Positions 1,520 to 40,775 of a DNA stretch of 64,000 bases are shown one piece after another (position 1 is the stretch's first letter; every line of letters starts with the position of its first letter). Made by a program: the position numbers and the translations under genes. The notes under the pieces were generated by a model, which was given only the letters and a program-made list of their open reading frames with translations, was not told the DNA's origin and searched no databases. The DNA is taken from NCBI RefSeq assembly GCF_007827275.1, contig NZ_VISE01000001.1:3968001-4032000 (forward strand), written 5' to 3'. The stretch is from Gillisia sp. Hel_I_86 (lineage in GTDB: Bacteria; Bacteroidota; Bacteroidia; Flavobacteriales; Flavobacteriaceae).

Positions 1520-1549
1520 TTGTGCTAAAACAAATAGTTTTTATATTTG
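1520..1549 (+). promoter_or_regulatory. Promoter of the tRNA gene
   Basis: TTG at 1520-1522, a 19-nt gap, then TATATTTG at 1542-1549. This is a perfect match to the Bacteroidota housekeeping consensus (TTG near -33, TAnnTTTG at -7). The mature tRNA starts at 1633, leaving a 5' leader of roughly 75 nt. Confidence 0.7.
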
Positions 1550-5402: not shown

Positions 5403-5432
5403 CAAAAATACGTATTATTTTCTGTAATACAA
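5403..5432 (-). promoter_or_regulatory. rpsA promoter
   Basis: On the minus strand, TTG at 5432-5430, a 19-nt gap, and TATTTTTG at 5410-5403. This is an exact Bacteroidota housekeeping promoter, about 120 nt before the rpsA start codon. It leaves a long leader that could carry S1 autoregulation. Confidence 0.65.
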
Positions 5433-12264: not shown

Positions 12265-13393
12265 TAACTGATGTTACGCAGCAATTTTCTTTAAATTGCT
12301 ATTTGATGTTGATAACTCTTCCCATTGTTTCCAAGCTGCCTTGGTGGCAGCAAGCCATATTTCACTTTTCACTGCATAATGATTTTTATGGGTTCTAATT
12401 TTTAACCTTTCAAGTTTCATATGCGCAATCATGGATGCTATAAAATGGGCTTGTTGTGTTTGTACAGTTTTCGTTGGTGCTTTGGCAAAAGCGGTATTGT
12501 TTTTAATGGAGCGAAAAAATTCCTCTACTTTCCACCGTTTTTGATAGATTGTAGTAAGGCTCTGGTAATCTAAGTTTAAATCACTTGTAGCTAGATAAAG
12601 CGTACCAGTACTACCGTCCACGTTTTTGAAGACTTGCTTAGTTATCAATATAGGGTCACTATATTGTTTTAAATAAACTGACATAGTACGCTCTTCCAGC
12701 GTTAACGATTCAATACTTTGATAAATGCCCTTTGCTTTATCTTGTTCGCTCAATGCTACGGCCCTGTTTGATTTAAGGGCCATTATAAAATCTGAATTGC
12801 AGTCTTGTGCGATACAGCTCATATTCTCTGACGATGAAAACCAGCTGTCTGCCAAAACATACTTAAAACCTATGTTGTAGTTTGCTTGTACCACCATGCG
12901 GCGCATCATTTCGTTCTTGGTTTCCTTGCTTTTAAAAGTAGGTTTCCTTTTTTTGTTTAAAACGGCTACATCTTTCTTTACAAACTCAACACCTACAGGG
13001 AGGCCCATATCATACTTGGGACTATAATAATAGGAACTCACAAAATTTACACCTTTAACGTTTTTACCGCTACAATGGTCGTAGTGCCAATTTATTAAAG
13101 GATTGGTTTTTGTGTGTTTTTTGGGCTCAATGGAATCGTCAATAATCAACAACCCTTCTGATGACCTAATTTCGTGAACCATAGCTTTAGTTTCCAACCA
13201 CAAGGTTCTTGAGTCTATTTTACTGGATAGCAACCGCGTTATTTGGTCATGACCAACACTATTATCCGTCACTAATGACAAACCGGTCGCTGTACTGTAA
13301 GTCGGTGTAACCAACAAATAACCAGTATATAAGTCTAAAAGGTTATTAACATTCATAAATGAAATTTAATACTTTTGTGCGTAACATCAGTTA
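12265..13393. mobile_element. Intact IS4-type insertion sequence
   Basis: The element is bounded by perfect 16-bp terminal inverted repeats TAACTGATGTTACGCA (12265-12280) and its complement (13378-13393). It is 1129 bp long and carries one transposase gene reading leftwards. I could not identify an unambiguous target-site duplication. The outer AT-rich bases are similar on both sides, so the exact ends may be a few bases further in, for example at CTGATG. Confidence 0.8.
12274..13356 (-). CDS. DDE transposase, IS4-type (YREK)
   Basis: A 360-residue transposase. The first catalytic Asp is in LLIIDDSIEPKK (D73/D74), the second in KYVLADSWFSS, and the Glu lies in the IS4 signature YQKRWKVEEFFRSIK, which fits Y(2)R(3)E(6)K. 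The gene is full length with no internal stops, so it is probably active. Relatives in Flavobacteriia are often listed under IS701; the YREK motif places it in the wider IS4 group. Confidence 0.88.
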   Translation of the reverse strand: MNVNNLLDLYTGYLLVTPTYSTATGLSLVTDNSVGHDQITRLLSSKIDSRTLWLETKAMVHEIRSSEGLLIIDDSIEPKKHTKTNPLINWHYDHCSGKNVKGVNFVSSYYYSPKYDMGLPVGVEFVKKDVAVLNKKRKPTFKSKETKNEMMRRMVVQANYNIGFKYVLADSWFSSSENMSCIAQDCNSDFIMALKSNRAVALSEQDKAKGIYQSIESLTLEERTMSVYLKQYSDPILITKQVFKNVDGSTGTLYLATSDLNLDYQSLTTIYQKRWKVEEFFRSIKNNTAFAKAPTKTVQTQQAHFIASMIAHMKLERLKIRTHKNHYAVKSEIWLAATKAAWKQWEELSTSNSNLKKIAA

Positions 13394-14759: not shown

Positions 14760-15206
14760 TTACTTTTTCAATAATCTTTCAGCATTTTCAATAGCCAAAC
14801 AACAAATATTTCCAAAAGAATCTTCTCCTTTATCTACTAATAATCGATATGCATTTATAAAATTATAATAAGCCGAAACTGCTCTTTTGCTGTTCTTTGC
14901 TTTAAGCAATGTTTCAAAAGATGAGCGTCTTAAATCTTCACGTATTATATCATCCACGTATTTTTTTAATTCTTCATCAGAAACCACAATTTCGGCATCG
15001 ATTTTTTCACTTAATTTCTTTTGTTTAATTCTGGAACCAAATGGATCAAACATATTCCTTAACTTTCCATTTTTAAAGGCCTCGAAATCTTCAGATGATT
15101 TACCAGGCCAAGCCATTCTTGAATTACCATTATTATCGGGATGGTAAAACCAAATTCCTTTTTTAAGCCTTTTCTTTAATTTCCGAGGGATTTTAAACTC
15201 TTTCAT
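14760..15206 (-). CDS. Uncharacterised protein co-oriented with a Fic gene
   Basis: A 148-residue basic protein. It begins KEFKIPRKLKKRLKKGIWFYHPD, has a central acidic helix (SDEELKKYVDDIIREDLRR) and ends AIENAERLLKK. No signal peptide, membrane segment or known motif is visible, and I do not recognise the family. It starts 22 nt downstream of the Fic gene stop on the same strand. Co-transcription is therefore likely, which makes it a candidate Fic partner, substrate or immunity protein. That role is inference from position only. Confidence 0.55.
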   Translation of the reverse strand: MKEFKIPRKLKKRLKKGIWFYHPDNNGNSRMAWPGKSSEDFEAFKNGKLRNMFDPFGSRIKQKKLSEKIDAEIVVSDEELKKYVDDIIREDLRRSSFETLLKAKNSKRAVSAYYNFINAYRLLVDKGEDSFGNICCLAIENAERLLKK

Positions 15207-15228: not shown

Positions 15229-16302
15229 TTATTTTTTCAACACTTTAACCAATTTCACATTCAAATAAAGATTCTCCACTCCTACTTTTTGCGACTTTAA
15301 TATTCCAATTTTTTCAAGTTCAATAAGATATTCGGCTGCCGTTTGACGTTTAGCAATGCCTTTATCCACTAAATATTTTACTTTACAATAAGGCTGTTCA
15401 AATAACAATTCAATTAATTCCTTGGAATAAACTCGTTTGGGGAGCTTTTCTTTTGCAAAACGAATGGTTTCCTGCATTAATTGGTTAATACTATTTATTT
15501 TACCTAATGTGTAGTGAGAAGTTTCTTCTATACCTTTTAGTATAAAAAGTATCCAAGCTTCCCAGGCCGACTTCTCTGTGACCTTTCTAAGATATGTATA
15601 ATAGTCATTTTTATTTTCAATGATAAATTTGCTTAAATAGAGAATTGGGGTATCTAAAAGTCCTTTCTCGACTATGTATAACATATTTACAACTCTACCA
15701 GTTCGTCCATTTCCATCAAAAAAAGGATGTATCGCTTCAAATTGATAGTGCATTATAGCCAACTTAATAAGAGAATCTATATCATCTTCTCTATATATAA
15801 AGTCTTCTAAGTTCTTTAATAAATTTCGAATTACTTCTTCACCTTCTGGCGGAGTATAAATCGTTTTGTTATTGCTTGTGATGGTAGTTCCCGGAGCATT
15901 TCTTATACCAGATCCGTTCTCCTTTATTATTTGTACAATCTCAATAAAAGAATTGGTGGATAGTGGTCTTTTAGTTAAATTACTATAGCCCTCCCAAAGT
16001 GCATGACGATACCTTAAAACTTCTTTCGTTTGTGCATCAGTTGAAGAAATATTTGAAGATAAAGCTTTATATAGTAGATCTTGAGTTGTTACTATATTTT
16101 CAATTTCGGAACTGTCTTTCGCTTCTTGAAGCGTAATGGCATTTATAAGCATCGACTGGTTAGGGATTTCATTTGCACGCCCCTTTAATTCTGCTAAAAT
16201 TTTATTGGAAGCTATTGCCTGTTTTAAAATATTTTTTGTTTCCACATCAAAATTTGGAGGCAATAGTGGTAGTTTGTTATTTGGTTCTTCGGGATTATAC
16301 AT
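15229..16302 (-). CDS. Class II Fic-domain AMPylase-like protein (first copy)
   Basis: From the second ATG the protein is 357 residues. The catalytic Fic loop HPFFDGNGRTGR (192-203) is complete, so nucleotidyl (usually AMP) transfer to a protein hydroxyl is expected. The N-terminal helix carries SSEIEN (64-69), matching the inhibitory (S/T)xxxE(G/N) motif of class II Fic proteins. The C-terminus is a winged helix-turn-helix (KRQTAAEYLIELEKIGILKS) and can bind DNA. I chose the start at 16302 because the upstream ATG (16323) would put a TGTCGA operator half-site inside the coding region. It lies directly beside the CRISPR array, facing away from it. Confidence 0.88.
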   Translation of the reverse strand: MYNPEEPNNKLPLLPPNFDVETKNILKQAIASNKILAELKGRANEIPNQSMLINAITLQEAKDSSEIENIVTTQDLLYKALSSNISSTDAQTKEVLRYRHALWEGYSNLTKRPLSTNSFIEIVQIIKENGSGIRNAPGTTITSNNKTIYTPPEGEEVIRNLLKNLEDFIYREDDIDSLIKLAIMHYQFEAIHPFFDGNGRTGRVVNMLYIVEKGLLDTPILYLSKFIIENKNDYYTYLRKVTEKSAWEAWILFILKGIEETSHYTLGKINSINQLMQETIRFAKEKLPKRVYSKELIELLFEQPYCKVKYLVDKGIAKRQTAAEYLIELEKIGILKSQKVGVENLYLNVKLVKVLKK

Positions 16303-16306
16303 AGCA

Positions 16307-16383
16307 TCGACATTTAAAAACAATTATGTCGAGAGCATCGACATATTACAAATATATGTCGAAATTTTATATATTTATCGACA
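16307..16383. promoter_or_regulatory. TGTCGA operator cluster between fic and the CRISPR array
   Basis: Five half-sites alternate in orientation: TCGACA at 16307-16312, TGTCGA at 16327-16332, TCGACA at 16338-16343, TGTCGA at 16357-16362 and TCGACA at 16378-16383. Two of the gaps are 14 and 13 nt, giving repeated TCGACA-N13/14-TGTCGA dyads. They precede the Fic gene and run up to the degenerate first CRISPR repeat. Autoregulation by the Fic winged helix is the likely role. Confidence 0.6.
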
Positions 16384-16385
16384 TG

Positions 16386-19300
16386 CAATTGATTTTAACT
16401 AGGATTCACAGGACTTAGGAACGAATAAAGGTGCCTGCAGCTGTTGTGAATTGCTTTCAGAATTGTATTTTTAACTAGGATTCACAGGTACCGTCCATGA
16501 AGCACCTTGTGCTACACCGTTGTGAATTGCTTTCAGAATTGTATTTTTAACTAGGATTCACAGGAATATGCTGGAAGCCTTGCTCCTCAAAGGGTTGTGA
16601 ATTGCTTTCAGAATTGTATTTTTAACTAGGATTCACAGGATGATATACTACTTTATCAATAGTATATATGTTGTGAATTGCTTTCAGAATTGTATTTTTA
16701 ACTAGGATTCACAGGGCAATTTTTCTTTTAGTGCTGATTGGTATGTTGTGAATTGCTTTCAGAATTGTATTTTTAACTAGGATTCACAGGGTTTACATGA
16801 TTAGAACCATCCCCAATAAGTTGTGAATTGCTTTCAGAATTGTATTTTTAACTAGGATTCACAGGGAGATCGATGAAACAAACATAGACAACTATGTTGT
16901 GAATTGCTTTCAGAATTGTATTTTTAACTAGGATTCACAGGATTACGTAGTGTGCCGCTAAGGCGGCAGGGGTTGTGAATTGCTTTCAGAATTGTATTTT
17001 TAACTAGGATTCACAGGCTGATTGTTGCAGCTTTGCCGCTGCCGGTAGTTGTGAATTGCTTTCAGAATTGTATTTTTAACTAGGATTCACAGGTTGCGGT
17101 TTAATTGACCGCGTTCTCGTTCGTTGTGAATTGCTTTCAGAATTGTATTTTTAACTAGGATTCACAGGGATAGTAGGTTTCAATTATTAGGTACCACAGT
17201 TGTGAATTGCTTTCAGAATTGTATTTTTAACTAGGATTCACAGGTTTTTCTACTGAAACCTTTTCGATTTTGGTGTTGTGAATTGCTTTCAGAATTGTAT
17301 TTTTAACTAGGATTCACAGGTTCAGGCTTTGGTTCCCCTCTAAGCTGATCGTTGTGAATTGCTTTCAGAATTGTATTTTTAACTAGGATTCACAGGATTA
17401 TTTAATTTGTCTTTCATCCTTTCATAGTTGTGAATTGCTTTCAGAATTGTATTTTTAACTAGGATTCACAGGTTGAATATCCCATTGCACTGTTCAATGT
17501 GAGTTGTGAATTGCTTTCAGAATTGTATTTTTAACTAGGATTCACAGGCATTTCGGTAAGCAAAACAAAATGCGGTACGTTGTGAATTGCTTTCAGAATT
17601 GTATTTTTAACTAGGATTCACAGGAACTCTATATGAGTGGAATGATGTTCCTATGTTGTGAATTGCTTTCAGAATTGTATTTTTAACTAGGATTCACAGG
17701 TTAAAGCTACTGTTATTAAAGGGTTCGTTAGTTGTGAATTGCTTTCAGAATTGTATTTTTAACTAGGATTCACAGGAAATGCCTATGTAATTAACGCGAC
17801 AGACGAGTTGTGAATTGCTTTCAGAATTGTATTTTTAACTAGGATTCACAGGAGCTGCTTTTGGTGCAGGATATGTTATAGGTTGTGAATTGCTTTCAGA
17901 ATTGTATTTTTAACTAGGATTCACAGGAAGCTGCAGCTGCTCTTTTAGTTTCTGCTGGTTGTGAATTGCTTTCAGAATTGTATTTTTAACTAGGATTCAC
18001 AGGTTGTGGAAAAGATATAGCATAGCAAACGGTTGTGAATTGCTTTCAGAATTGTATTTTTAACTAGGATTCACAGGAAACATCGTAATCCACATCTACT
18101 GCCAAGGGTTGTGAATTGCTTTCAGAATTGTATTTTTAACTAGGATTCACAGGTTTGTGGAAAAGATATAGCATAGCAAACGGGTTGTGAATTGCTTTCA
18201 GAATTGTATTTTTAACTAGGATTCACAGGGTTGGTCCAATGAGTAACATCACTGAATTTGTTGTGAATTGCTTTCAGAATTGTATTTTTAACTAGGATTC
18301 ACAGGAACATACCATATACAAGTACGTTGGCAACGTTGTGAATTGCTTTCAGAATTGTATTTTTAACTAGGATTCACAGGAATAAAATTGAGTAGAGCAG
18401 ATTGGGTAATGTTGTGAATTGCTTTCAGAATTGTATTTTTAACTAGGATTCACAGGCAAGTATTCTCTTCTTACGATGAAGCCTTAGTTGTGAATTGCTT
18501 TCAGAATTGTATTTTTAACTAGGATTCACAGGTCACACCTTACTTACCTCCATCAATGGGTTGTTGTGAATTGCTTTCAGAATTGTATTTTTAACTAGGA
18601 TTCACAGGCCCTGGTATCTATCAGCAATGAAGCCAGTAGTTGTGAATTGCTTTCAGAATTGTATTTTTAACTAGGATTCACAGGATTTTAGTTGTTTTGC
18701 GTTGGCTTGGATAAGTTGTGAATTGCTTTCAGAATTGTATTTTTAACTAGGATTCACAGGACTGAAGGGGTTCTAGAACACCTCCTCCAGGTTGTGAATT
18801 GCTTTCAGAATTGTATTTTTAACTAGGATTCACAGGGACAGCATACAAAATGCTCATGTTTTGGCAGTTGTGAATTGCTTTCAGAATTGTATTTTTAACT
18901 AGGATTCACAGGGACAGCATACAAAATGCTCATGTTTTGGCAGTTGTGAATTGCTTTCAGAATTGTATTTTTAACTAGGATTCACAGGTAATAAATTAAT
19001 GGAATCGTCCTTAAATGTGTTGTGAATTGCTTTCAGAATTGTATTTTTAACTAGGATTCACAGGTTGAATCTGAATTACCAGAGGATATGCAAGGTTGTG
19101 AATTGCTTTCAGAATTGTATTTTTAACTAGGATTCACAGGTTTGATTTTAAAAAGGAAATATTAATAGTAGTTGTGAATTGCTTTCAGAATTGTATTTTT
19201 AACTAGGATTCACAGGAGATATCGAATTTGCCAGCAACGCAATAGGTTGTGAATTGCTTTCAGAATTGTATTTTTAACTAGGATTCACAGGAATATCTAA

Positions 19301-22300
19301 ATTGATATTGTTAGCGTGTAGGTTGTGAATTGCTTTCAGAATTGTATTTTTAACTAGGATTCACAGGTAGATTTATGTTAGGAGTGTACCCAGAAGAGTT
19401 GTGAATTGCTTTCAGAATTGTATTTTTAACTAGGATTCACAGGGAATTCGGGTCTTTGTAGCCTACTATCGGGGTTGTGAATTGCTTTCAGAATTGTATT
19501 TTTAACTAGGATTCACAGGAGTTCTAACTGACGCATCAACAATATCGTGGTTGTGAATTGCTTTCAGAATTGTATTTTTAACTAGGATTCACAGGTTTCT
19601 TTAGCTTTTGTTGCCATAATGTTTAGTTGTGAATTGCTTTCAGAATTGTATTTTTAACTAGGATTCACAGGCCACGGGCGTTTGTTTCGAGCCATTCTTG
19701 GTTGTGAATTGCTTTCAGAATTGTATTTTTAACTAGGATTCACAGGATTGTTTCATAGAATCATCCATATTTTCTAGTTGTGAATTGCTTTCAGAATTGT
19801 ATTTTTAACTAGGATTCACAGGGCTGTTAATGTTTATAGTTATTAATAATGTGTTGTGAATTGCTTTCAGAATTGTATTTTTAACTAGGATTCACAGGCT
19901 TACAAGTGCCAATTCCATATTATTGATTGTTGTGAATTGCTTTCAGAATTGTATTTTTAACTAGGATTCACAGGGGGATAACAAGGCTGTCGCTGGAAAC
20001 TGTAGTTGTGAATTGCTTTCAGAATTGTATTTTTAACTAGGATTCACAGGACTTTGGGAAATACCAAGGCACTTGGAGGGTTGTGAATTGCTTTCAGAAT
20101 TGTATTTTTAACTAGGATTCACAGGCTGGGTAAAGGAGATAGCATTTTCATTAAGGTTGTGAATTGCTTTCAGAATTGTATTTTTAACTAGGATTCACAG
20201 GATCAAACAGATTTAGATTTAGATCCATTTGTTGTGAATTGCTTTCAGAATTGTATTTTTAACTAGGATTCACAGGTCACATCAACATCCGCTTCCAAAG
20301 TTGCTTGTTGTGAATTGCTTTCAGAATTGTATTTTTAACTAGGATTCACAGGAAATAAAGAAATCAAATATTATTCAATTATGTTGTGAATTGCTTTCAG
20401 AATTGTATTTTTAACTAGGATTCACAGGCCTAGGAGGGTTTGGCAAATACGATTTTGAGTTGTGAATTGCTTTCAGAATTGTATTTTTAACTAGGATTCA
20501 CAGGAAATCGTGATTTCATCCGATGTCCCACACGGTTGTGAATTGCTTTCAGAATTGTATTTTTAACTAGGATTCACAGGTCCTTTTTATTTATTAATCA
20601 TTAATCCCCCGTTGTGAATTGCTTTCAGAATTGTATTTTTAACTAGGATTCACAGGCATCTGCTATTTTTAATGCGATAACCGTAGGTTGTGAATTGCTT
20701 TCAGAATTGTATTTTTAACTAGGATTCACAGGCTAAGTGATTCTATGAATAATCTAACATAGGTTGTGAATTGCTTTCAGAATTGTATTTTTAACTAGGA
20801 TTCACAGGTATAAAATGTAGCAGACTTACTTGCTAGAAGTTGTGAATTGCTTTCAGAATTGTATTTTTAACTAGGATTCACAGGGCTATATCCATTACAG
20901 GACTAGGAAATTTAGTTGTGAATTGCTTTCAGAATTGTATTTTTAACTAGGATTCACAGGTAAGGGTTGCGAATGCAGAAATGCTTGAAAGTTGTGAATT
21001 GCTTTCAGAATTGTATTTTTAACTAGGATTCACAGGATTTGTTTGATCTTGATAAAATGCTTTCATGTTGTGAATTGCTTTCAGAATTGTATTTTTAACT
21101 AGGATTCACAGGTTCAACATGATGGCAACGAACCCAGATATGTTGTGAATTGCTTTCAGAATTGTATTTTTAACTAGGATTCACAGGAAACCCAAATATA
21201 ACCCCAGCCCAATGAAGTTGTGAATTGCTTTCAGAATTGTATTTTTAACTAGGATTCACAGGGTTTTTCTATTGCGTTATTCCATTTTGATAGTTGTGAA
21301 TTGCTTTCAGAATTGTATTTTTAACTAGGATTCACAGGAATTAAATAGGTTGTTATCATAATTATCCGTTGTGAATTGCTTTCAGAATTGTATTTTTAAC
21401 TAGGATTCACAGGTCCAAAGCCTTTTGTTTTGTATCTTCTCAAGTTGTGAATTGCTTTCAGAATTGTATTTTTAACTAGGATTCACAGGTTAGAAATATT
21501 AATGGATTCAGAAATAGTAGTTGTGAATTGCTTTCAGAATTGTATTTTTAACTAGGATTCACAGGCACTAATCATATACAGCGAAAGTTGTGGTGGTTGT
21601 GAATTGCTTTCAGAATTGTATTTTTAACTAGGATTCACAGGAAATTAATCTTTGCAGGTTTCTAATTGCATGTTGTGAATTACTTTCAGAATTGTATTTT
21701 TAACTAGGATTCACAGGTTGCTTCCGTATCTAGTTGCTTTGGTATCTGTTGTGAATTGCTTTCAGAATTGTATTTTTAACTAGGATTCACAGGTTAATGG
21801 TTGCCGGTAAGATATCGCTGGACGTTGTGAATTGCTTTCAGAATTGTATTTTTAACTAGGATTCACAGGATTATAAACGCTTTATGAAATGGCTTAAGCG
21901 TTGTGAATTGCTTTCAGAATTGTATTTTTAACTAGGATTCACAGGTTTAGAGGGCGTGGGGCGTTGCAGTTGACAGTTGTGAATTGCTTTCAGAATTGTA
22001 TTTTTAACTAGGATTCACAGGATTCAACATGATGGCAACGAACCCAGATATGTTGTGAATTGCTTTCAGAATTGTATTTTTAACTAGGATTCACAGGATT
22101 ATTGAAGGTAGTATTGGTGTGGCATATGTTGTGAATTGCTTTCAGAATTGTATTTTTAACTAGGATTCACAGGCTGTAGATGCAAATTTCACTACAATGG
22201 GTAGTTGTGAATTGCTTTCAGAATTGTATTTTTAACTAGGATTCACAGGCTCGTTTAGCGCATCTAAATCTTCTTTGTCGTTGTGAATTGCTTTCAGAAT

Positions 22301-24145
22301 TGTATTTTTAACTAGGATTCACAGGCTGCCCATTAAAAAACTGAGCCCAGAGGAGTTGTGAATTGCTTTCAGAATTGTATTTTTAACTAGGATTCACAGG
22401 AACTGCAGTTGTTTGGTAGTTGTATCATAGGTTGTGAATTGCTTTCAGAATTGTATTTTTAACTAGGATTCACAGGTCTCTAACGACGTATAATATGAAT
22501 CCAATAGTTGTGAATTGCTTTCAGAATTGTATTTTTAACTAGGATTCACAGGCTTTTTTTTTATCTAAAAACCAATAAGGCAGTTGTGAATTGCTTTCAG
22601 AATTGTATTTTTAACTAGGATTCACAGGGGGTTGTTCTATTACTGCAGCTACCGTTAGTTGTGAATTGCTTTCAGAATTGTATTTTTAACTAGGATTCAC
22701 AGGGGCCAAACGGTGCAGCATTACATAAAACATGTTGTGAATTGCTTTCAGAATTGTATTTTTAACTAGGATTCACAGGAAAACCTCTTTACCACTGCGA
22801 ATGGTTTAGGTTGTGAATTGCTTTCAGAATTGTATTTTTAACTAGGATTCACAGGTAATCTTAATCAAAAGAACTGGTCTACCATGTTGTGAATTGCTTT
22901 CAGAATTGTATTTTTAACTAGGATTCACAGGTATGAATCTAAATCCCCAGAACCTTCCAAAGTTGTGAATTGCTTTCAGAATTGTATTTTTAACTAGGAT
23001 TCACAGGGCACGCAAGAGTAAGCACGTGAGATTGGGGGTTGTGAATTGCTTTCAGAATTGTATTTTTAACTAGGATTCACAGGTTGGTCTAAAAGTTCTT
23101 TTTCTGCTCCAAGGTTGTGAATTGCTTTCAGAATTGTATTTTTAACTAGGATTCACAGGAAGGAAATTATGCTTCAACCAAAGCTTATAGTTGTGAATTG
23201 CTTTCAGAATTGTATTTTTAACTAGGATTCACAGGTTATGCAGGAAAAATCAATAGATCCTCATAGTTGTGAATTGCTTTCAGAATTGTATTTTTAACTA
23301 GGATTCACAGGTCATCTTTATACTCTTGTCTTAAACGATTAGTTGTGAATTGCTTTCAGAATTGTATTTTTAACTAGGATTCACAGGGCATATCATTGCC
23401 TGGACAGGCCAATACAAGTTGTGAATTGCTTTCAGAATTGTATTTTTAACTAGGATTCACAGGCAAATGCTTTTTTAATACCTTCTTTTGCCAGTTGTGA
23501 ATTGCTTTCAGAATTGTATTTTTAACTAGGATTCACAGGTGTTGTTTATTTTAGTTGTTCTTTCTTTATGTTGTGAATTGCTTTCAGAATTGTATTTTTA
23601 ACTAGGATTCACAGGGGTTGATGTTCCTTCGGATTTGTCTGGCAAGTTGTGAATTGCTTTCAGAATTGTATTTTTAACTAGGATTCACAGGCAGACAAGA
23701 TGGATGCCTTGATAATGAGAAGTTGTGAATTGCTTTCAGAATTGTATTTTTAACTAGGATTCACAGGTCATTTTTTAAATTAATCTCTGTAAAGTACGTT
23801 GTGAATTGCTTTCAGAATTGTATTTTTAACTAGGATTCACAGGGCGAAGCTTTTTTTTACCCCAAGTTTTTGGTTGTGAATTGCTTTCAGAATTGTATTT
23901 TTAACTAGGATTCACAGGAGTTTCGGCTCAATAATGCACACGGCCAGAGTTGTGAATTGCTTTCAGAATTGTATTTTTAACTAGGATTCACAGGTTGTTT
24001 TGAAAAAGAATCGAGCGTAGTTCGTTGTGAATTGCTTTCAGAATTGTATTTTTAACTAGGATTCACAGGAAGTGTTTATTTACACAATCATCGTGGTAAG
24101 TTGTGAATTGCTTTCAGAATTGTATTTTTAACTAGGATTCACAGG
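16386..24145 (+). CRISPR. Type II-C CRISPR array, 102 spacers
   Basis: 102 full 46-bp repeats start at 16443 and the last spans 24100-24145. A degenerate, 5'-truncated copy at 16386-16412 precedes them. Repeats begin GTTGTGAATTGC and end TAGGATTCACAGG. Spacers number 102: 84 of 30 bp, 17 of 29 bp and one of 28 bp. I saw only one variant repeat (21672, GAATTACTTTC). The plus strand is the crRNA strand, because the 5' part of the repeat is complementary to the tracrRNA anti-repeat. Each full repeat holds TTG (positions 2-4), a 19-nt gap and TATTTTTA (24-31), a promoter-like pair; the degenerate copy has lost it. Three protospacers are represented twice. The 5' position of the degenerate repeat suggests new units were added at the right, cas-proximal end, as reported for II-C loci. 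Confidence 0.98.
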
Positions 24146-24172
24146 ATACCCGCCATAAAAAGCTGGTATCCT
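24143..24172 (+). terminator. Hairpin closing the CRISPR array
   Basis: AGGATACC (24143-24150, sharing its first bases with the last repeat) pairs perfectly with GGTATCCT (24165-24172), followed by GTTTCTTA. It stands exactly where plus-strand array transcription should end before meeting convergent cas2. The T-run is weak. Confidence 0.5.
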
Positions 24173-24379
24173 GTTTCTTAGCTGCATTATTAGGATTAAA
24201 AAATGAGGAGATATTTAATCGTAACGACTCCCTCACAAATTCCTTTTTTGTTTCTAACCTGGACAAATAAAATTTTCCTCTAACATCAATGTGGAAGTAG
24301 TATGTCATTTCGACACGCAGCGAAGTGGAGTGAGAAATCTCATACAACCCACCTTTCGGTCGGGGGATGTCAAGTAATT
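24173..24379. other. Gap between array and cas2 with an interspersed repeat
   Basis: No gene is seen. Around 24302-24348 is a copy of an intergenic repeat (TCATTTCGACACGCAGCG, then GTGAGAAATCTCATAC) of the kind scattered through the right half of the window. If spacers are added at the cas-proximal end, this is where the leader should be. Confidence 0.4.
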
Positions 24380-24796
<417 letters not shown>

Positions 24797-25693
24797 CTAT
24801 TCGTACACCGGATATAAAATTTTTCTTCCCGTGCCCAAAAAGCATTCATATAAACTATTGGTGGTACGGCTCATTGCAACCATCAACGGACTTAACTTAT
24901 CATCTATCTTTACGTCCATTGCCGGGATTTGTAGCAGCTGACTTTTTAAAAAAGTATTGAGTTCTTCTATATTTTCCCCGCTTTCCACTATTTCATATAC
25001 CAGTTCATCCACAAATGGGCGATACGGCTCCATAATATCGTCTGCCAGGCAAAACGCATTGTATTTGTTTCGGTGAAAAATACCAACAGAAGGCAACATG
25101 CCGCTACTTATCAATGCCCTAGCAGTAACCGCCCTTAATATGGCATAGCCATAATTGAGAAGATTGTTAGGTGGGATTCCTTTTTGATACCTGTTGAATC
25201 CGTCAATATCAAATATATTTTGCCAGTAATGGGCAGCTGAAATGGCTTCATGATTTTCAGTATCACCACTTTTCACTTCCCCAGCCCACCTCAATAGTTT
25301 TTTATGGTTTTTTCCCCTGCGCAATAAATGATTGGCTTGATTGCCAATTTTGGAAGTAACGGTTTGTTGCCATAAATTTTTTTTAAGGGGAAGGCTGGCG
25401 TTCAACTGATTTCTAAAACGTTCCGTCTGTTGGGTATGGCCAACCAAAGGCTGAAGTATACTACAAGGTAAATGTTGTTTATCGCAGTTTACCACAGCAG
25501 CTTTATTTTGGATAAGCTTGGTTAACAACCCATTGGTAATGGTAATTTGAGGGTTTTCCAGAATTAGCACCCCGATATCCTCGATAGATACAGTCTTTGC
25601 CTCCTTTTCTTCTTCAGGATAAGAAACCACCAATTGTTCGTTTTTGGTGCTCAGGTAAGCGGGATTGCCGAAAAAGAGGGTGCGTTTGATCAT
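24797..25693 (-). CDS. cas1: CRISPR-associated integrase Cas1
   Basis: A 298-residue type II Cas1. The N-terminal beta domain begins IKRTLFFGNPAYLSTKNEQL with IEDIGVLILENPQITIT. The catalytic helical domain has NLLNYGYAILRAVTARALISSGMLPSVGIFH and DDIMEPYRPFVDELVYEIV, with the metal-binding Glu, His and Asp/Glu positions of the family. It integrates new spacers with Cas2. It starts 5 nt after the cas9 stop, so it is in the same transcript. Length is normal and the gene is intact. Confidence 0.95.
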   Translation of the reverse strand: MIKRTLFFGNPAYLSTKNEQLVVSYPEEEKEAKTVSIEDIGVLILENPQITITNGLLTKLIQNKAAVVNCDKQHLPCSILQPLVGHTQQTERFRNQLNASLPLKKNLWQQTVTSKIGNQANHLLRRGKNHKKLLRWAGEVKSGDTENHEAISAAHYWQNIFDIDGFNRYQKGIPPNNLLNYGYAILRAVTARALISSGMLPSVGIFHRNKYNAFCLADDIMEPYRPFVDELVYEIVESGENIEELNTFLKSQLLQIPAMDVKIDDKLSPLMVAMSRTTNSLYECFLGTGRKILYPVYE

Positions 25694-25698
25694 AGTTT

Positions 25699-28600
25699 CT
25701 AATATTCGCCAGTTTGAACAATATTTCCCAAATGGTTCAATCTTACCTTAACAATTCCATCTAGATGGCCTAAACTTTTAATAGGTTTCCAGGTAATATC
25801 TTTTAATTCTTTTACATCATTAACTTCTGTTTCTAAATGATGTCTAAAAACATAATCACGTACCGCTGAATTTCCATATTCAACTTTTGATATTTTCTGA
25901 ACACGGAATAAATTAGGAGAGATCAAATTCTGATTACTTGGATCTAACAGGTCTATTTCGAGCGGATCGAAATTTTCATTCGGAAAAATGAACATTTCGT
26001 TTTGCTTTAAACTGAAAAGAAGAGGCCATCCATTTTGATTTTTTTCTTTTACAATTGACAGCTTTTGGTCTTTACGAATAACAGCATCATAAAATGGTAC
26101 AACATCATCATCCAATTCACCATCTTCATCTTGGTAAATGGCAACGTGATGATTATTGCCAGTACTCACAAAATCAACTGGTATTTCTTGACCGTTTTCA
26201 TCAAAAATACTTTCTCCCAAATGGTTTTTTGCCGTATGTAAAGATTGGGCATTACTCACTCCTGTGATCCTAACCCTTTTAATCACAATACCTTTTTCTT
26301 TATTTAAATAAATAGGATGAGTGTCTAAATCAGAAAAGGCTTTTTTGTAATCGTTCCCGTATTCCTTTAACCTGGCATTAAGTGCGTTTTTCACAGTATT
26401 ATCCAGTATTTTATCGATGTGTTTCGCGTTTTTAAAGTTATCTGAATTAAGATCTTTCCTTATGGTAAAAATTTCCTCAAAACATAGCACTTCTTTCAAA
26501 AGTCCCCCATTGTGAGTTATAGAATCATTTTTGAGCATTTTGGTATCAAAAGCTACCTGAGGATTATTGTTATACTGTGCAAGGTGATTTAGAACTACCT
26601 CTCTTTCTTTTAAATTAATAATTAGCCGTGCTTCCTCCAGTGTAAACCGCTTGCTTATTTTGGTGGGTTTTTCAAGTGGTCTTTTGGACTTACCATAAAT
26701 AGTTTCCTTGTGCAGTTGTCCTCTAGGCGTGAGTTGAATTTTAGATTTAATTTGCCCCTTACCTGTCTTGGTCTTATTAATATTCTGGGTAACTACTTTA
26801 TTTTTGTTCTTAAAACTTATCAAAATACTTTCAATATGTTGTTTTGCGCTTTCGCGAAAACGTGGCATTGGGCTTTTATAAACACTTTTCCCTTTCTCAT
26901 TACGCTCTTTAATATTTGCCTCTATATTTTTAATGAGTGGATGATTATCTTGAGTCGAGTCTTTCCTAGCGCTTAGGTTATTAATGTGTTGAATGTGGTT
27001 GCGAGTGGTAAAAGCAACCGCAAGCGCATCCATTGCGTGATGGCGATGATCATTGCGCTTAGTCCAATCTTTAATGACTTCATGTTTCTTTAACTTTTGA
27101 GTGGTTTTGTTTAATCGTTCCTCAAATTCGGTGAGGCCTAAGGCACTATACTTGGGCAAGTTAAGCTCTTTCATCACATTGATAAGATCCCAATCATTTC
27201 TCAATTTATCGGTAATACTTCCAGTGGTAGCTACCACATCTTCAACTACTTCAAACAACATTTCCTTGGCTTTTCTTGCGATATATTGGCTATTGCGTAG
27301 ATCGCGTTCTATAAACCCATCAGGAATTTTGGCTAATGGCATCAATAGTTTATTACGTTTTGCCCTGTTGATTTTACCATCTTTGTGCATTGCTTCAATG
27401 CGCTCCACAAAAGCTTCTAATCCCAAATGGTAGTCTTGTGATATAAAATCATAGGCCGTACGGTTTGCTTTTTTAAGGTTATCCTTTTTAAAGGCAAGTG
27501 TTTTGTTAGAAAAAGAATCGTCAAATAACAAAGCCTTTGGAATGATATGCTCAATATCAATTTCTTTGCTGAAAATTTTATCGGGTGCTATATATGTGTC
27601 TGTAAATAGGTCTTTGTGCCCTCTGGATTCCAATTCTTGATACAGGCGATATCGGATAACGTCATTTTTAGTGGGATTGGGAATACCGAATTTCTGTGTA
27701 AGAAGTTTACGTATTTCATCATTTCGTCGCGTGCCATCAGTAATTCCTTTGGTCATTTCAGCACGTTCTTTAGCCGATTTTTTGAGTTCGCGAGCCAATT
27801 CAATACGTATTTCATCAGGCTTGCCATAGGTATCTATAATTTGATTGACCACATTGACCATTTGGTTAAGGATTTTCTCTACCATAGGATTGCGAAGGCT
27901 ATTCTTTTTAAGTATTTCTAACTTGGGCTTTAATTCGCGATTCTTTAAATCTTCTCTATTGAGACTTTTAGAGTGATTATAACCAGCTCTAGCGCAAGAC
28001 TCAGAATACAAATCGCCATCTTCTAGATAAGGCAGGATATTTCGAATAGCTTTGGCCGAAACGTTTCCATAGTCTTGAGAAAATGAAATATTGGTCAAAA
28101 GTGTTGCGTACTCTGGCTTAAAGCCAAACTTTTTCTGTAGTTTTTTCTTAAGTGCCACACTCGAATTGCCATAAATTAGGCGGTCTTCTTCAGAAATTTT
28201 ATCATCTTCCTCTGTTGCATACAACAAATGCCACAACTGGTAATGTGCTTGCTTCTCAAAATCATCCTCCAAAGGTTTAAAATCCAAAATATTTTTTGAA
28301 ATACCTATTGATGGAAACGTATTTTTAAGCTCCTCCTTAATAGTAGCGGCTGATGCTTTTTTCCAGTCTATACCATAACCTTCTCGTTCTGAAATAGTTT
28401 GAAAAACATTGAACAGTGCAGCATTTGTTCTATTTCCTTCAATTTTATCAAAATTACTTTTCCAATTGCTAAGTTTGCCTATATCCATCTCCTCTGAAAG
28501 AATTTTCAAAAGTTCCTTATAAGTCATGTCTCCACGAAGGTTTAATTCCTCAAACAATTTTTGCCGAATTTCTGCATCTAGGTCTTTTACTTCTATCCGG

Positions 28601-29940
28601 GATTTAGTCTCTGGATTGGTAAAAACAAGATGATTGAGATTTTGCCATGTTTTAAATTCCTGAAAAAGAGGCGATGATTTTGGAATCACACGACGACCTA
28701 CCCTGCGTGATTTAGATTTGCCAGTTTCTTGCTCGATATATTCCTGCTCCCAGCTTTCAAACTGACAAAAACTGATAAGCAACTTTTGGGATTTCAGTTT
28801 GCGCTGGTAGAAGATGATGACATCCCTTATCTCCTCTTTTAATGCTTCAGTAAGTTCACTGTGATATTTGGATTGGGTGCTCCAAATAGTTTCAAATTCG
28901 TCTAAATAATCCTGCCGATAAAAAACCTTATTTTTTAATGATGTATACGGATTTTTGAGCAGTTGTTTATAAAGAAACTGACCTACGGTTTCTCTGTTTA
29001 AATATAGTTGTTTGCTTCGGTCGGAAATGGCACCCAAATAACCACTGGATTTATTGATATTGTTATTGATTTCTTGCAATACGATGGCCAGATGTTCAAG
29101 ATCTAGCTTTTCAGTCAAAGCCTTGACACGCCACTCATAATTCTCTAAGCGTTTTTCTTGGGCAGTTCCTGTTCGTTTTATACCAACAATATCAAAAGGC
29201 TTTTGGCAGATAGCCCAAGTTTGACTTTTATTTTTATCCTGCAGTTCATCGGAAAGTGTAGATGAGAGAATGTTCGGATAGATTTTTTTTTGAGTGTCCC
29301 ATATTTTTTTAAATTCTTCTTTAAGGTCAGAGCGATAGAAATCTGGAATATATTTTCCATCTTTTTTTAATATGGTCAAAACATATTCGCCGGGCGTTAG
29401 ATTTTCATCGTACAACTTTTTTGCAACTGCCATCCCGTCGATAGCTTGTCCATCTTCCTCATTTTGAGCTTTACGACTGCTTTTATAGCCACGCTTTTTA
29501 TTGATAGTGAGAAAAACTTTGGCTAGATCTTCCAGTTCAATTTTTTTTGCTGAGGCGCTTGCCCGTAATGAAAGGGTTTGATGCGTAGTGTTTTTTCCTA
29601 TTTCGGTTAGAGCCGTATCACTATCAATAAAACCATTGAATTTTAAGATTTCAATTAAGTTTTTCCTCCGCATTTTATAGCGTTGTAGATTACGGCGAGC
29701 ACCACGCTTTTGAGTTCGAGAAGCGTTAGGTGTCAAGGATTTTCCTCCAGCAAAGTCCTGAGTAGGGTTTTTCGATTCAGATACTTTCCCAGAAGCATCA
29801 ACCTTGCTGAAATTATCATATTGAATGACACGTACCCCAAGCTTAATGATTGATGAAGTTTCTTGCTCGTTTCCTGCTTCATTTACGAGGGCCCACCCTA
29901 TAGAGTTTGTCCCCAAATCAAGTCCTAAAATTCTTTTCAT
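25699..29940 (-). CDS. cas9: Type II-C Cas9 nuclease
   Basis: A 1413-residue RNA-guided DNA endonuclease, in the size range of the longer Bacteroidota II-C enzymes. RuvC-I is LGLDLGTNSIGWALV (catalytic D8). The Arg-rich bridge helix RTQKRGARRNLQRYKMRRKN follows, RuvC-II is PDEIRIELAREL (E714), and HNH is DIEHIIPKALLFDDSFSNK (H798). RuvC-III is HRHHAMDALAVAF (H968, D971). All catalytic residues are present, so it should cut both strands. The C-terminal wedge/PAM-interacting part (about 1150-1413) gives no PAM by eye. A TATATTTA -7-like box at 29964-29957 probably drives cas9-cas1-cas2. Confidence 0.98.
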   Translation of the reverse strand: MKRILGLDLGTNSIGWALVNEAGNEQETSSIIKLGVRVIQYDNFSKVDASGKVSESKNPTQDFAGGKSLTPNASRTQKRGARRNLQRYKMRRKNLIEILKFNGFIDSDTALTEIGKNTTHQTLSLRASASAKKIELEDLAKVFLTINKKRGYKSSRKAQNEEDGQAIDGMAVAKKLYDENLTPGEYVLTILKKDGKYIPDFYRSDLKEEFKKIWDTQKKIYPNILSSTLSDELQDKNKSQTWAICQKPFDIVGIKRTGTAQEKRLENYEWRVKALTEKLDLEHLAIVLQEINNNINKSSGYLGAISDRSKQLYLNRETVGQFLYKQLLKNPYTSLKNKVFYRQDYLDEFETIWSTQSKYHSELTEALKEEIRDVIIFYQRKLKSQKLLISFCQFESWEQEYIEQETGKSKSRRVGRRVIPKSSPLFQEFKTWQNLNHLVFTNPETKSRIEVKDLDAEIRQKLFEELNLRGDMTYKELLKILSEEMDIGKLSNWKSNFDKIEGNRTNAALFNVFQTISEREGYGIDWKKASAATIKEELKNTFPSIGISKNILDFKPLEDDFEKQAHYQLWHLLYATEEDDKISEEDRLIYGNSSVALKKKLQKKFGFKPEYATLLTNISFSQDYGNVSAKAIRNILPYLEDGDLYSESCARAGYNHSKSLNREDLKNRELKPKLEILKKNSLRNPMVEKILNQMVNVVNQIIDTYGKPDEIRIELARELKKSAKERAEMTKGITDGTRRNDEIRKLLTQKFGIPNPTKNDVIRYRLYQELESRGHKDLFTDTYIAPDKIFSKEIDIEHIIPKALLFDDSFSNKTLAFKKDNLKKANRTAYDFISQDYHLGLEAFVERIEAMHKDGKINRAKRNKLLMPLAKIPDGFIERDLRNSQYIARKAKEMLFEVVEDVVATTGSITDKLRNDWDLINVMKELNLPKYSALGLTEFEERLNKTTQKLKKHEVIKDWTKRNDHRHHAMDALAVAFTTRNHIQHINNLSARKDSTQDNHPLIKNIEANIKERNEKGKSVYKSPMPRFRESAKQHIESILISFKNKNKVVTQNINKTKTGKGQIKSKIQLTPRGQLHKETIYGKSKRPLEKPTKISKRFTLEEARLIINLKEREVVLNHLAQYNNNPQVAFDTKMLKNDSITHNGGLLKEVLCFEEIFTIRKDLNSDNFKNAKHIDKILDNTVKNALNARLKEYGNDYKKAFSDLDTHPIYLNKEKGIVIKRVRITGVSNAQSLHTAKNHLGESIFDENGQEIPVDFVSTGNNHHVAIYQDEDGELDDDVVPFYDAVIRKDQKLSIVKEKNQNGWPLLFSLKQNEMFIFPNENFDPLEIDLLDPSNQNLISPNLFRVQKISKVEYGNSAVRDYVFRHHLETEVNDVKELKDITWKPIKSLGHLDGIVKVRLNHLGNIVQTGEY

Positions 29941-30000: not shown

Positions 30001-30031
30001 TTGCATAGTTCAATTTTAATCCTTAATATTG
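30001..30031 (+). promoter_or_regulatory. tracrRNA promoter
   Basis: TTG at 30001-30003, a 20-nt gap, then TAATATTG (30024-30031), one mismatch from TAnnTTTG. The predicted start falls about 5-8 nt downstream, right at the beginning of the anti-repeat. It is divergent from the cas9 promoter. Confidence 0.5.
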
Positions 30032-30035
30032 TCTT

Positions 30036-30124
30036 ACAATTTTGAAGCAATTCACAATAAGGATTATTCCGTTGTGAAAACATTTAAGCCGCCTCACCTT
30101 CCAATGTGGGGCATTTTTCGTTTT
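30036..30124 (+). ncRNA. tracrRNA
   Basis: The anti-repeat at 30036-30057 ends AAGCAATTCACAA. It is complementary to the first 23 nt of the CRISPR repeat with a single one-base bulge and one G-U pair. A short GGA/TCC nexus-like hairpin (30061-30070) and an AU-rich linker follow. Then GCCTCAC (30091-30097) pairs with GTGGGGC (30106-30112) and is followed by T-runs, an intrinsic terminator. Expected length is 75-90 nt. It is essential for crRNA maturation and Cas9 loading. It lies in the cas9 upstream region, transcribed away from cas9. Confidence 0.9.
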
Positions 30125-30688: not shown

Positions 30689-31750
30689 TTATTTCAATGC
30701 ATTAAGAACGACTCCATTTACATAATAGTTAGTTCTACCTATTTTAAATTTGGTCAGGTGACCATCTTCTGCCAATTGGTTTAAATAATTAGCTGCAGTG
30801 ATGCGTGAGATATGCAGCTCTTTTTGTAAAAATTCTATTTTCGTGTAAGGTTGCTTAAACAAATGGTTAAGTAGATCTTGACTGTAGAATTTATAATTTT
30901 CCCGTAGGAGCACCTTAAATTCTGCCATTGCCTGTTTTATGTTTTTTACTTTCTCTAATGTATCTTTGGCTGTAACGGCAACAGCGGTGAGCATGAAGCA
31001 AAGATACTCTTCCCACTCCCCTTTATCGCGTACCTGCTGTAGCAGTCTGTAATAATCATTTTTATGTTGAATGATATACTTACTCAAATACAAAATGGGT
31101 GTATCTAACAAGTTATACTGTATGAGATATAATATATTCAAGATTCTGCCTGTACGACCATTCCCATCATAAAATGGGTGAATACTTTCAAATTGAAAAT
31201 GAAATAATGCCATTTTAATAAGATGGTCTACAGACAAACATTCTGGCTTATTTATAAACTCTTCCAGGTTTTGCATTAACGGTACTATCTCTGCATTGCT
31301 TTGTGGTGGCGAATAGACAACAGCATCTGTCTTTTGATTTTTAAGCGTTGTTCCAGGTACTTTTCTAAAGCCAGCATTATTGTTTTCTAGTATTTGCTGA
31401 ATTTGTTTTATGTGATTAATTGATAGAAAATTGTGTTTGACTACGATTTTGTAACCTGTTTTCATTGCTAATATGTAATTCTGCACCTCTTTGGCTTGAC
31501 TAGAGGTAAGCTTGCCGATACCCATACTTGCCTTATAAATTTCGTCATGGGTAGTAACAATGTTTTCTACCTCAGAACTATCTTTAGCCTCTTGTATGGC
31601 CAGTGTATTTATTAAAATATCTTGTCGAGGAATAGATTGTGCAACACCCTTTAATTCAGCCAAAGCCCTATGTGCTTCAGGTAAAAGTTTTAGAACTTTC
31701 AGGGTTTCTAACTCTTTAGGATAGGGCAAATTTTGAAGTTTCCAAGTCAT
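30689..31750 (-). CDS. Class II Fic-domain AMPylase-like protein (second copy)
   Basis: 353 residues with an intact Fic loop HPFYDGNGRTGR (191-202). The N-terminal inhibitory motif is SSEVEN (58-63), the class II (S/T)xxxE(G/N) form. The C-terminal winged helix contains SRITAANYLNQLAEDGHLTKFKIGRTNYYVN. It has the same architecture as the gene at 15229-16302 but clearly diverged sequence, so it is an old paralogue or independent acquisition, not a recent duplication. Four dyad operators lie immediately upstream. Expected activity is AMP transfer to a target protein, held off by the inhibitory helix. No partner gene follows it. Confidence 0.9.
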   Translation of the reverse strand: MTWKLQNLPYPKELETLKVLKLLPEAHRALAELKGVAQSIPRQDILINTLAIQEAKDSSEVENIVTTHDEIYKASMGIGKLTSSQAKEVQNYILAMKTGYKIVVKHNFLSINHIKQIQQILENNNAGFRKVPGTTLKNQKTDAVVYSPPQSNAEIVPLMQNLEEFINKPECLSVDHLIKMALFHFQFESIHPFYDGNGRTGRILNILYLIQYNLLDTPILYLSKYIIQHKNDYYRLLQQVRDKGEWEEYLCFMLTAVAVTAKDTLEKVKNIKQAMAEFKVLLRENYKFYSQDLLNHLFKQPYTKIEFLQKELHISRITAANYLNQLAEDGHLTKFKIGRTNYYVNGVVLNALK

Positions 31751-40745: not shown

Positions 40746-40775
40746 CAAATATACAATGTTTACTACATTTTGCAA
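40746..40775 (-). promoter_or_regulatory. SRP RNA promoter
   Basis: On the minus strand, TTG (40775-40773), a 19-nt gap, TATATTTG (40753-40746). This exact Bacteroidota consensus ends only a few nt before the mature 5' end of the RNA. It serves as a local calibration for start-site spacing. Confidence 0.8.

Follow-up and report, generated by a model that had tools for sequence, protein, structure and literature searches.

The array of clustered regularly interspaced short palindromic repeats (CRISPR) described here raises a particular question: how can it be expressed when it reads toward the end at which it is expected to grow? The array lies at 16443–24145 (+ strand) of a 64,000-nucleotide (nt) stretch of the genome of Gillisia sp. 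Hel_I_86, a member of the Bacteroidota (contig NZ_VISE01000001.1, positions 3,968,001 to 4,032,000; hereafter the window), and has 102 full repeats of 46 nt and 101 spacers of 28–30 nt. The locus is a type II-C CRISPR-Cas system, with cas9, cas1 and cas2 present without csn2 or cas4, and with a gene for the trans-activating CRISPR RNA (tracrRNA), recognized by its sequence only, which contains an anti-repeat and lies beyond cas9. The anti-repeat sets the direction of the array and, extending the argument from it, the array is taken to read toward cas2, opposite in strand to cas9 and convergently with the cas genes. The cas2 end is where new spacers are expected to be added, and a degenerate copy of the repeat sits at the other end, in line with such growth. 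Because the array reads toward its growing end, a promoter in the leader would transcribe the wrong strand and, since spacers are expected to enter where the array reads to, it could not make sense CRISPR RNAs (crRNAs). The answer proposed here, to which we give a probability of roughly 0.75, is that every full repeat is probably a promoter in itself, of the housekeeping-sigma kind known from Bacteroidota.

A promoter-like pattern in every full repeat

All 102 full repeats (101 of them identical; the copy that starts at 21672 has one mismatch) carry TTG at repeat positions 2–4 and the box TATTTTTA at positions 24–31, separated by 19 nt, just as the sequence-only reading of this DNA had described. 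In the first full repeat the −33-like TTG stands at 16444–16446 (+) and the −7-like box, a pattern match, at 16466–16473 (+), and the same places are occupied in every other full copy. The degenerate leader-distal repeat, at 16367–16412 (+), has kept its last 20 nt and lost the TTG, and shows TGATTTTA in place of the box, whose absence there had also been noticed. The window contains 113 matches to TTG-N19-TAnnTTTR, where shuffling gives 5.2 on average. The repeats account for 102 of them and are copies of one sequence, so that the independent evidence consists of the single repeat and its relatives; the other 11 are elsewhere. In 464 kb of the same genome (the array-masked window plus 20 stretches of 20 kb), a TTG followed by an equal or better box at a gap of 18–21 is found once per 7.8 kb of one strand, and once per 33 kb if the gap is exactly 19.

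Bacteroidota housekeeping promoters have TAnnTTTG at −7, accompanied by TTTG near −33 in Bacteroides fragilis and by TTG at −33 in Flavobacterium hibernum (PMC9723704, PMC7366714, PMC8092290; these and the papers below are cited for parts of their text). The repeat resembles them in its TTG and its gap of 19; its box has all the fixed letters except the last, which is A, not G. The same architecture had been pointed out upstream of a tRNA, of rpsA and of the signal recognition particle (SRP) RNA, and all three sites are indeed found, at 1520–1549 (+), 5403–5432 (−) and 40746–40775 (−), each as TTG-N19-TATATTTG or TATTTTTG. About 84 nt lie between the first of them and the tRNA at 1633, and the last overlaps the first bases of the Rfam match to SRP RNA, which starts at 40749. 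In 1021 upstream regions from this genome and its relatives, TTG-N17-21-TAnnTTTG occurs 61 times against 10.4 after shuffling (5.9-fold), and the gap between TTG and box peaks at 19–20. In the Gillisia genome alone there are 11 sites of the G form (1.6 shuffled) and 14 of the A form (5.6 shuffled). The shuffles are the control in these counts; comparison of sense with antisense was dropped, upstream regions of divergent genes being counted on both strands.

The box of sigma A has been mapped at −12 to −5 in F. psychrophilum (PMC9723704), and with that spacing the TTG of the repeat would fall at −34 to −32 and the transcription start at repeat position 36, that is, at 16478 in the first full repeat. 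The start had been placed near position 37 by the sequence-only reading, a prediction that shifts by one nucleotide, and the first 11 nt of the RNA would be repeat. In the mechanism that follows, RNA polymerase would recognize the TTG and the TAnnTTTR box of each repeat, start at about position 36 and copy the remaining 11 nt of that repeat and then the spacer; the transcript would continue into the next repeat, whose first ~23 nt would pair with the tracrRNA, and transcripts would probably terminate at a hairpin to which the last repeat and the leader both contribute. We infer promoter activity, start site and termination from the letters of the DNA.

The box in relatives and in other phyla

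The relatives of the repeat were gathered from Bacteroidota cas9 loci, 90 of which (out of 115) gave 92 arrays with repeats of 33–52 nt in at least three copies; loci where no array was found are outside all counts. These arrays comprise 54 distinct long repeats (44–50 nt) and 24 distinct repeats of 36 nt, after removal beforehand of a 34-nt fragment at one locus (L123). Repeats were oriented by their likeness to GTTGTGAATTGCTTTCAA, and those of other phyla by their likeness to GTTGTGGTTTGC; one locus on a Bacteroidota plasmid (L215), whose 36-nt repeat has TACCTTTC, is in neither repeat set.

The alignment of repeats from other Bacteroidota II-C arrays, which had been suggested as a check of the box and its gap, comes out in favour of a promoter in the repeat. 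TAnnTTT[AG] stands 17–23 nt after the TTG place in 37 of the 54 long repeats and in 17 of the 26 clusters that they form at 70% identity, and when everything after position 18 is shuffled, 1.3 repeats match on average and never more than 7 in 2000 trials; on the reverse strand the pattern occurs, at any place, in 2/54. The looser TAnnTT[TA][AG] is found in 43/54 (2.3 expected), and the fixed letters hold 8.4 bits of information over the cluster heads, against a null maximum of 4.0 with the same anchoring. The 33 distinct repeats of 46 nt were also joined in a minimum spanning tree, and changes were counted along it: on its 24 edges of at most 8 differences, the TA and TTT of the box changed 1.0 times per site, while its two free positions changed 4.5 times, positions 18–23 2.8, positions 32–36 5.2 and positions 37–46 2.1 times.

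Repeats of other phyla present a different picture. The set used consists of 20 distinct type II repeats, of which 11 are from loci gathered here and 9 from Table 1 of PMC4607530, the latter being examples picked by its authors; arrays were found in 3 of 9 Pseudomonadota stretches of the plasmid controls (10 of 56 matching records were used) and in 7 of 14 Planctomycetota stretches, to which one further locus (L015) was added. None of the 20 has the box anywhere, as against 41 of the 54 long Bacteroidota repeats; conversely, 16/20 end in TAnn[ACG]T, a sigma70-like −10, and none of the 78 Bacteroidota repeats shows this terminal element in the form known from Neisseria and Campylobacter. TTG at positions 2–4 is present in 9/20 of the repeats from other phyla and in 53/54 long Bacteroidota repeats; as it is not confined to Bacteroidota, it lends a promoter little support by itself. 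Bacteroidota repeats from cas5 loci were likewise scored, over the first 20 starting places of each, with a box matrix derived from tracrRNA promoters (see below), and 0/20 pass at p<0.05.

Among the 36-nt repeats of Bacteroidota, 7/24 end in TAnnTT and 8/24 in GAnnTT, and 4/24 contain the strict box internally. The class of the form GTTGTGGTTTGATT...GATATT, to which we take the repeats of F. columnare and F. psychrophilum to belong, has no internal TAnnTTTG. In 15 of the 24 (for example at L055, L056, L060, L066 and L083), TTG at 9–11 and TAnnTT or GAnnTT at 31–36 are separated by 19 nt, and in those repeats a −7 box would span the junction of repeat and spacer. At eleven loci with GATATT-ending repeats (L066, L067, L083, L084 and seven more), the array in crRNA orientation lies on the Cas9 strand. 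In the long-repeat loci the array is always opposite to the best Cas9 match.

Where transcription would begin and end

A leader promoter directed into the array was considered as a candidate and rejected as not above chance: a TTG-type promoter points into the array in 1 of 58 leaders (4/58 have one pointing out), boxes alone point into it in 8/58, fewer than the 13.4 obtained by shuffling, and a sigma70 scan of 23900–24500 in the window gave no match above shuffles. On account of this result, of the conservation of the box in relatives and of its contrast with other phyla, the promoter reading can be called well supported for the long-repeat class of Bacteroidota II-C loci, as far as sequence comparison reaches. 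The proposal of the sequence-only reading that the repeat bears a promoter is accordingly supported in part, by a box that relatives keep and the 20 repeats of other phyla lack, and is weakened by the little weight that TTG carries and by the A at the end of the box.

Several observations count against a repeat promoter or reduce its force. TTG-N17-21 followed by the A-ended box is found 42 times in the 1021 upstream regions against 26.2 after shuffling, or 1.6-fold; the statement that a final A for G is the only deviation from the host consensus is right about the other fixed letters, which match, but the deviation makes the box a weaker one. Position 31 changes freely among close repeats (6.0 changes per site), and when edges of up to 12 differences are admitted (31 edges) the conservation contrast of the box fades, with 3.5 for TA, 3.3 for TTT, 6.5 for the free positions, 11 for position 31, 4.8 for 18–23, 7.8 for 32–36 and 4.3 for 37–46. 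The strict box is missing from 17 of the 54 long repeats, some of which have TTTCTTTG or GTTCTTTG there. Repeats of other phyla and of cas5 loci look richer in G+C, which would make the box rarer in them by composition alone. The −33 TTG could not be identified in F. johnsoniae (PMC7366714), and it stands at a gap of 17–21 before 19 of 53 tracrRNA boxes, so that the TTG at −33 is an optional part at best. Finally, the box matrix, which was built up from four 8-mer seeds on 60 stretches upstream of tracrRNAs and made 57 picks (10 of them without the initial TA, at least some of these within the anti-repeat), passes p<0.05 in 38/54 long repeats with a median score of 6.9, and does so in 27/54 on the reverse strand too, with a median of 1.0; given these reverse-strand matches, the pattern counts are preferred. 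As regards the last base, the A-ended box seems to be in use in promoters of these CRISPR loci, because 15 of the 47 tracrRNA box picks that begin with TA end in A (31 end in G and 1 in C). The repeat box and the tracrRNA box show no significant link in their last base (p 0.40).

The array could also yield a single long precursor, whether by read-through or from a leader-distal promoter, which tracrRNA and RNase III would cut at each repeat while the boxes in the repeats stay idle. The tracrRNA gene and anti-repeat required for cutting are present, and a lone TATATTTA without TTG (16370–16377, +; a pattern match), in the first bases of the degenerate copy, is a possible promoter for the distal end. 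Because tracrRNA promoters often lack TTG, the distal flanks were scanned for the box alone, and within 200 nt TAnnTTT[AG] is present in 26 of 47, where shuffling gives 15.1 (the opposite strand has it in 18, with 15.5 from shuffling; for TAnnTTTG, 10/47 against 6.4). Part of this excess, which argues against the repeat promoter, may be worn repeat copies, and a distal promoter may exist in some loci; for this reason the confidence in the repeat promoter was lowered from 0.78 to 0.75. Promoters of the form TTG-N17-21-TAnnTTTR, on the other hand, are found in 4 of 47 distal flanks of 300 nt, near the random rate of 6.7%, and the + strand of the window between 14000 and 16443 has no TTG-type promoter; a distal promoter also leaves the conservation of the box in the repeats unexplained, and we regard the single precursor as unlikely.

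That conservation might be due to something other than transcription, since conservation within a repeat need not imply it: TAnnTTTR could be kept for recognition of the repeat by Cas1-Cas2 or for a hairpin in its centre, and resemble a promoter for no further reason. The centre folds better than shuffles (p<0.05) in 11 of the 54 long repeats, and some matched changes are apparent by eye. The window repeat, when folded against shuffles, has no such hairpin, for which reason a centre hairpin was rejected as the cause of box conservation in it; moreover, the conserved letters are those of the host −7 box, and type II repeats of other phyla mostly show the sigma70-like ending. This explanation seems slightly less probable than the single precursor. 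As a separate observation, the repeats of five loci (L001, L108, L129, L140 and L093) form a small centre hairpin at positions 20–35, with seemingly matched changes at 23–32 (by eye). The pattern could, lastly, have arisen by chance in an AT-rich sequence of which there are 102 copies, the matches in the window amounting to one event; its presence in 37 of 54 distinct relatives, where 1.3 are expected, contradicts chance and makes this explanation very improbable.

At 24141–24179 (+) the ACAGG of the last repeat and part of the leader make up a terminator-like hairpin, with TTCTT after it (fold z −5.7 for 24132–24185). Behind the last repeat, a hairpin with T's is present on the crRNA strand in 28 of 58 long-repeat loci and on the other strand in 2/58. 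The rule for it was written after viewing the sequences; it fits 1.05 times on average in 20 shuffles, and at 29 of 1160 places chosen at random. For the 36-nt class the fit is 8/31 against 0. The place of the hairpin is constant and its sequence varies by group, with unrelated sequences occupying the same site. A simple terminator scan, limited to loops of at most 8 nt and requiring 5 T in 8, did not list the element. Since the ACAGG of the repeat forms one arm, each spacer insertion would leave the hairpin intact.

The same element might instead be a leader motif for spacer insertion, a reading that we hold to be somewhat short of an even chance. In the GATATT-ending 36-nt class the end of the repeat is mirrored in the leader without a T-run (by eye), which implies that the hairpin may also, or instead, serve insertion; a leader palindrome has been described in Riemerella (PMC5006608), and the terminator rule was formulated post hoc. 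The strand bias in the long class and the unrelated hairpins in an identical place speak for termination.

A broader proposal can be built on the repeat promoter: the II-C repeat promoter would have been rewritten to suit the sigma factor of the host, as TAnaaT closing the repeat in Pseudomonadota, Planctomycetota and other phyla, and as TAnnTTTR further inward in the lengthened repeat of Bacteroidota, with the array working as ~100 independent units and the terminator rebuilt from repeat and leader at each insertion. This combination is tentative; its estimate, too, was reduced by the distal boxes, from an even chance to just below it. If each repeat does carry a promoter, every stored phage fragment would be switched on by the adjoining repeat, the newest spacer would be expressed at once even in an array of 7.7 kb, and the repeat would be shaped by the host sigma factor besides the Cas proteins and the tracrRNA, which would allow a prediction of whether a II-C locus can be expressed after a move to another phylum.

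The remaining features of the locus follow the array. The cas2 gene (24380–24757, −) adjoins its high end, and is followed by cas1 of type II (24797–25693, −) and cas9 (25699–29940, −; 1413 amino acids). The tracrRNA gene is placed at 30036–30118 (+), with ends that are approximate predictions, an anti-repeat at 30042–30057 and a tail made of a hairpin and a T-run; the anti-repeat pairs with repeat positions 2 to ~24, with one bulge and one mismatch (by eye). A putative tracrRNA promoter was located by eye at 30001–30031 (+) as TTG-N20-TAATATTG, whose box departs from the consensus in one base; the box matrix chose a different site in the window, within the anti-repeat. One spacer occurs twice among the 101, and a 28-nt spacer near 18000 is nested within a 30-nt spacer near 18150. 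Three neighbouring open reading frames were examined: two encode Fic proteins, which lie on both sides of the CRISPR locus (15229–16323, −, and 30689–31750, −), and the third (14760–15206) had no match. A transposase gene of the DDE kind (12274–13356, −) lies ~3 kb before the array.

Comparison with described repeat promoters

Promoters borne by repeats are known from the II-C arrays of Campylobacter and Neisseria (PMC4607530, PMC7038990). The Gillisia locus resembles these systems in that the array is antisense to and convergent with the cas genes, the promoter belongs to the repeat and a degenerate "proximal" repeat is present. It differs from them in the form and place of the box: in Neisseria and Campylobacter a 36-nt repeat ends with the −10 (gnTAnaaT) and, by the same spacing, the start would fall in the spacer, whereas the Gillisia box has the Bacteroidota form, is set 15 nt back from the end in a repeat of 46 nt and predicts a start within the repeat. 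The parallel with Neisseria drawn by the sequence-only reading, with the consensus exchanged for that of Bacteroidota, would hold to this extent. Six Bacteroidota names were looked for in the main text of PMC4607530, and none appears there.

In Riemerella anatipestifer, whose CRISPR1 has 47-nt repeats, the study as far as it is drawn on here did not find a promoter in the repeat and placed its predicted promoters in the leader (PMC5006608), which is a further point against a repeat promoter and a difference from the Gillisia array; the present box offers a concrete promoter candidate where that study found none in the repeat. The idea of a repeat promoter in Bacteroidota is not wholly new, since the TTG in the repeats of F. 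columnare was proposed as a promoter in 2021, with eight supporting RNA-seq reads (PMC8092290), and a TTG promoter was proposed again in 2023 for F. psychrophilum, with support from an array that is transcribed on both sides of an insertion (PMC10309648), an observation that also speaks for the present reading. Those proposals are alike in placing a TTG 33 or 35 bp before each spacer; they are unlike the present one in that the portions of the two papers drawn on here mention no −7 box in the repeat, and strings of the Gillisia repeat are not in their text. Among the open-licence PubMed Central (PMC) papers that our searches listed, we recognized no report of TAnnTTTG inside a CRISPR repeat. 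What appears to be new is the −7 box in the repeat, its change with the phylum of the host and a predicted transcription start within the repeat itself.

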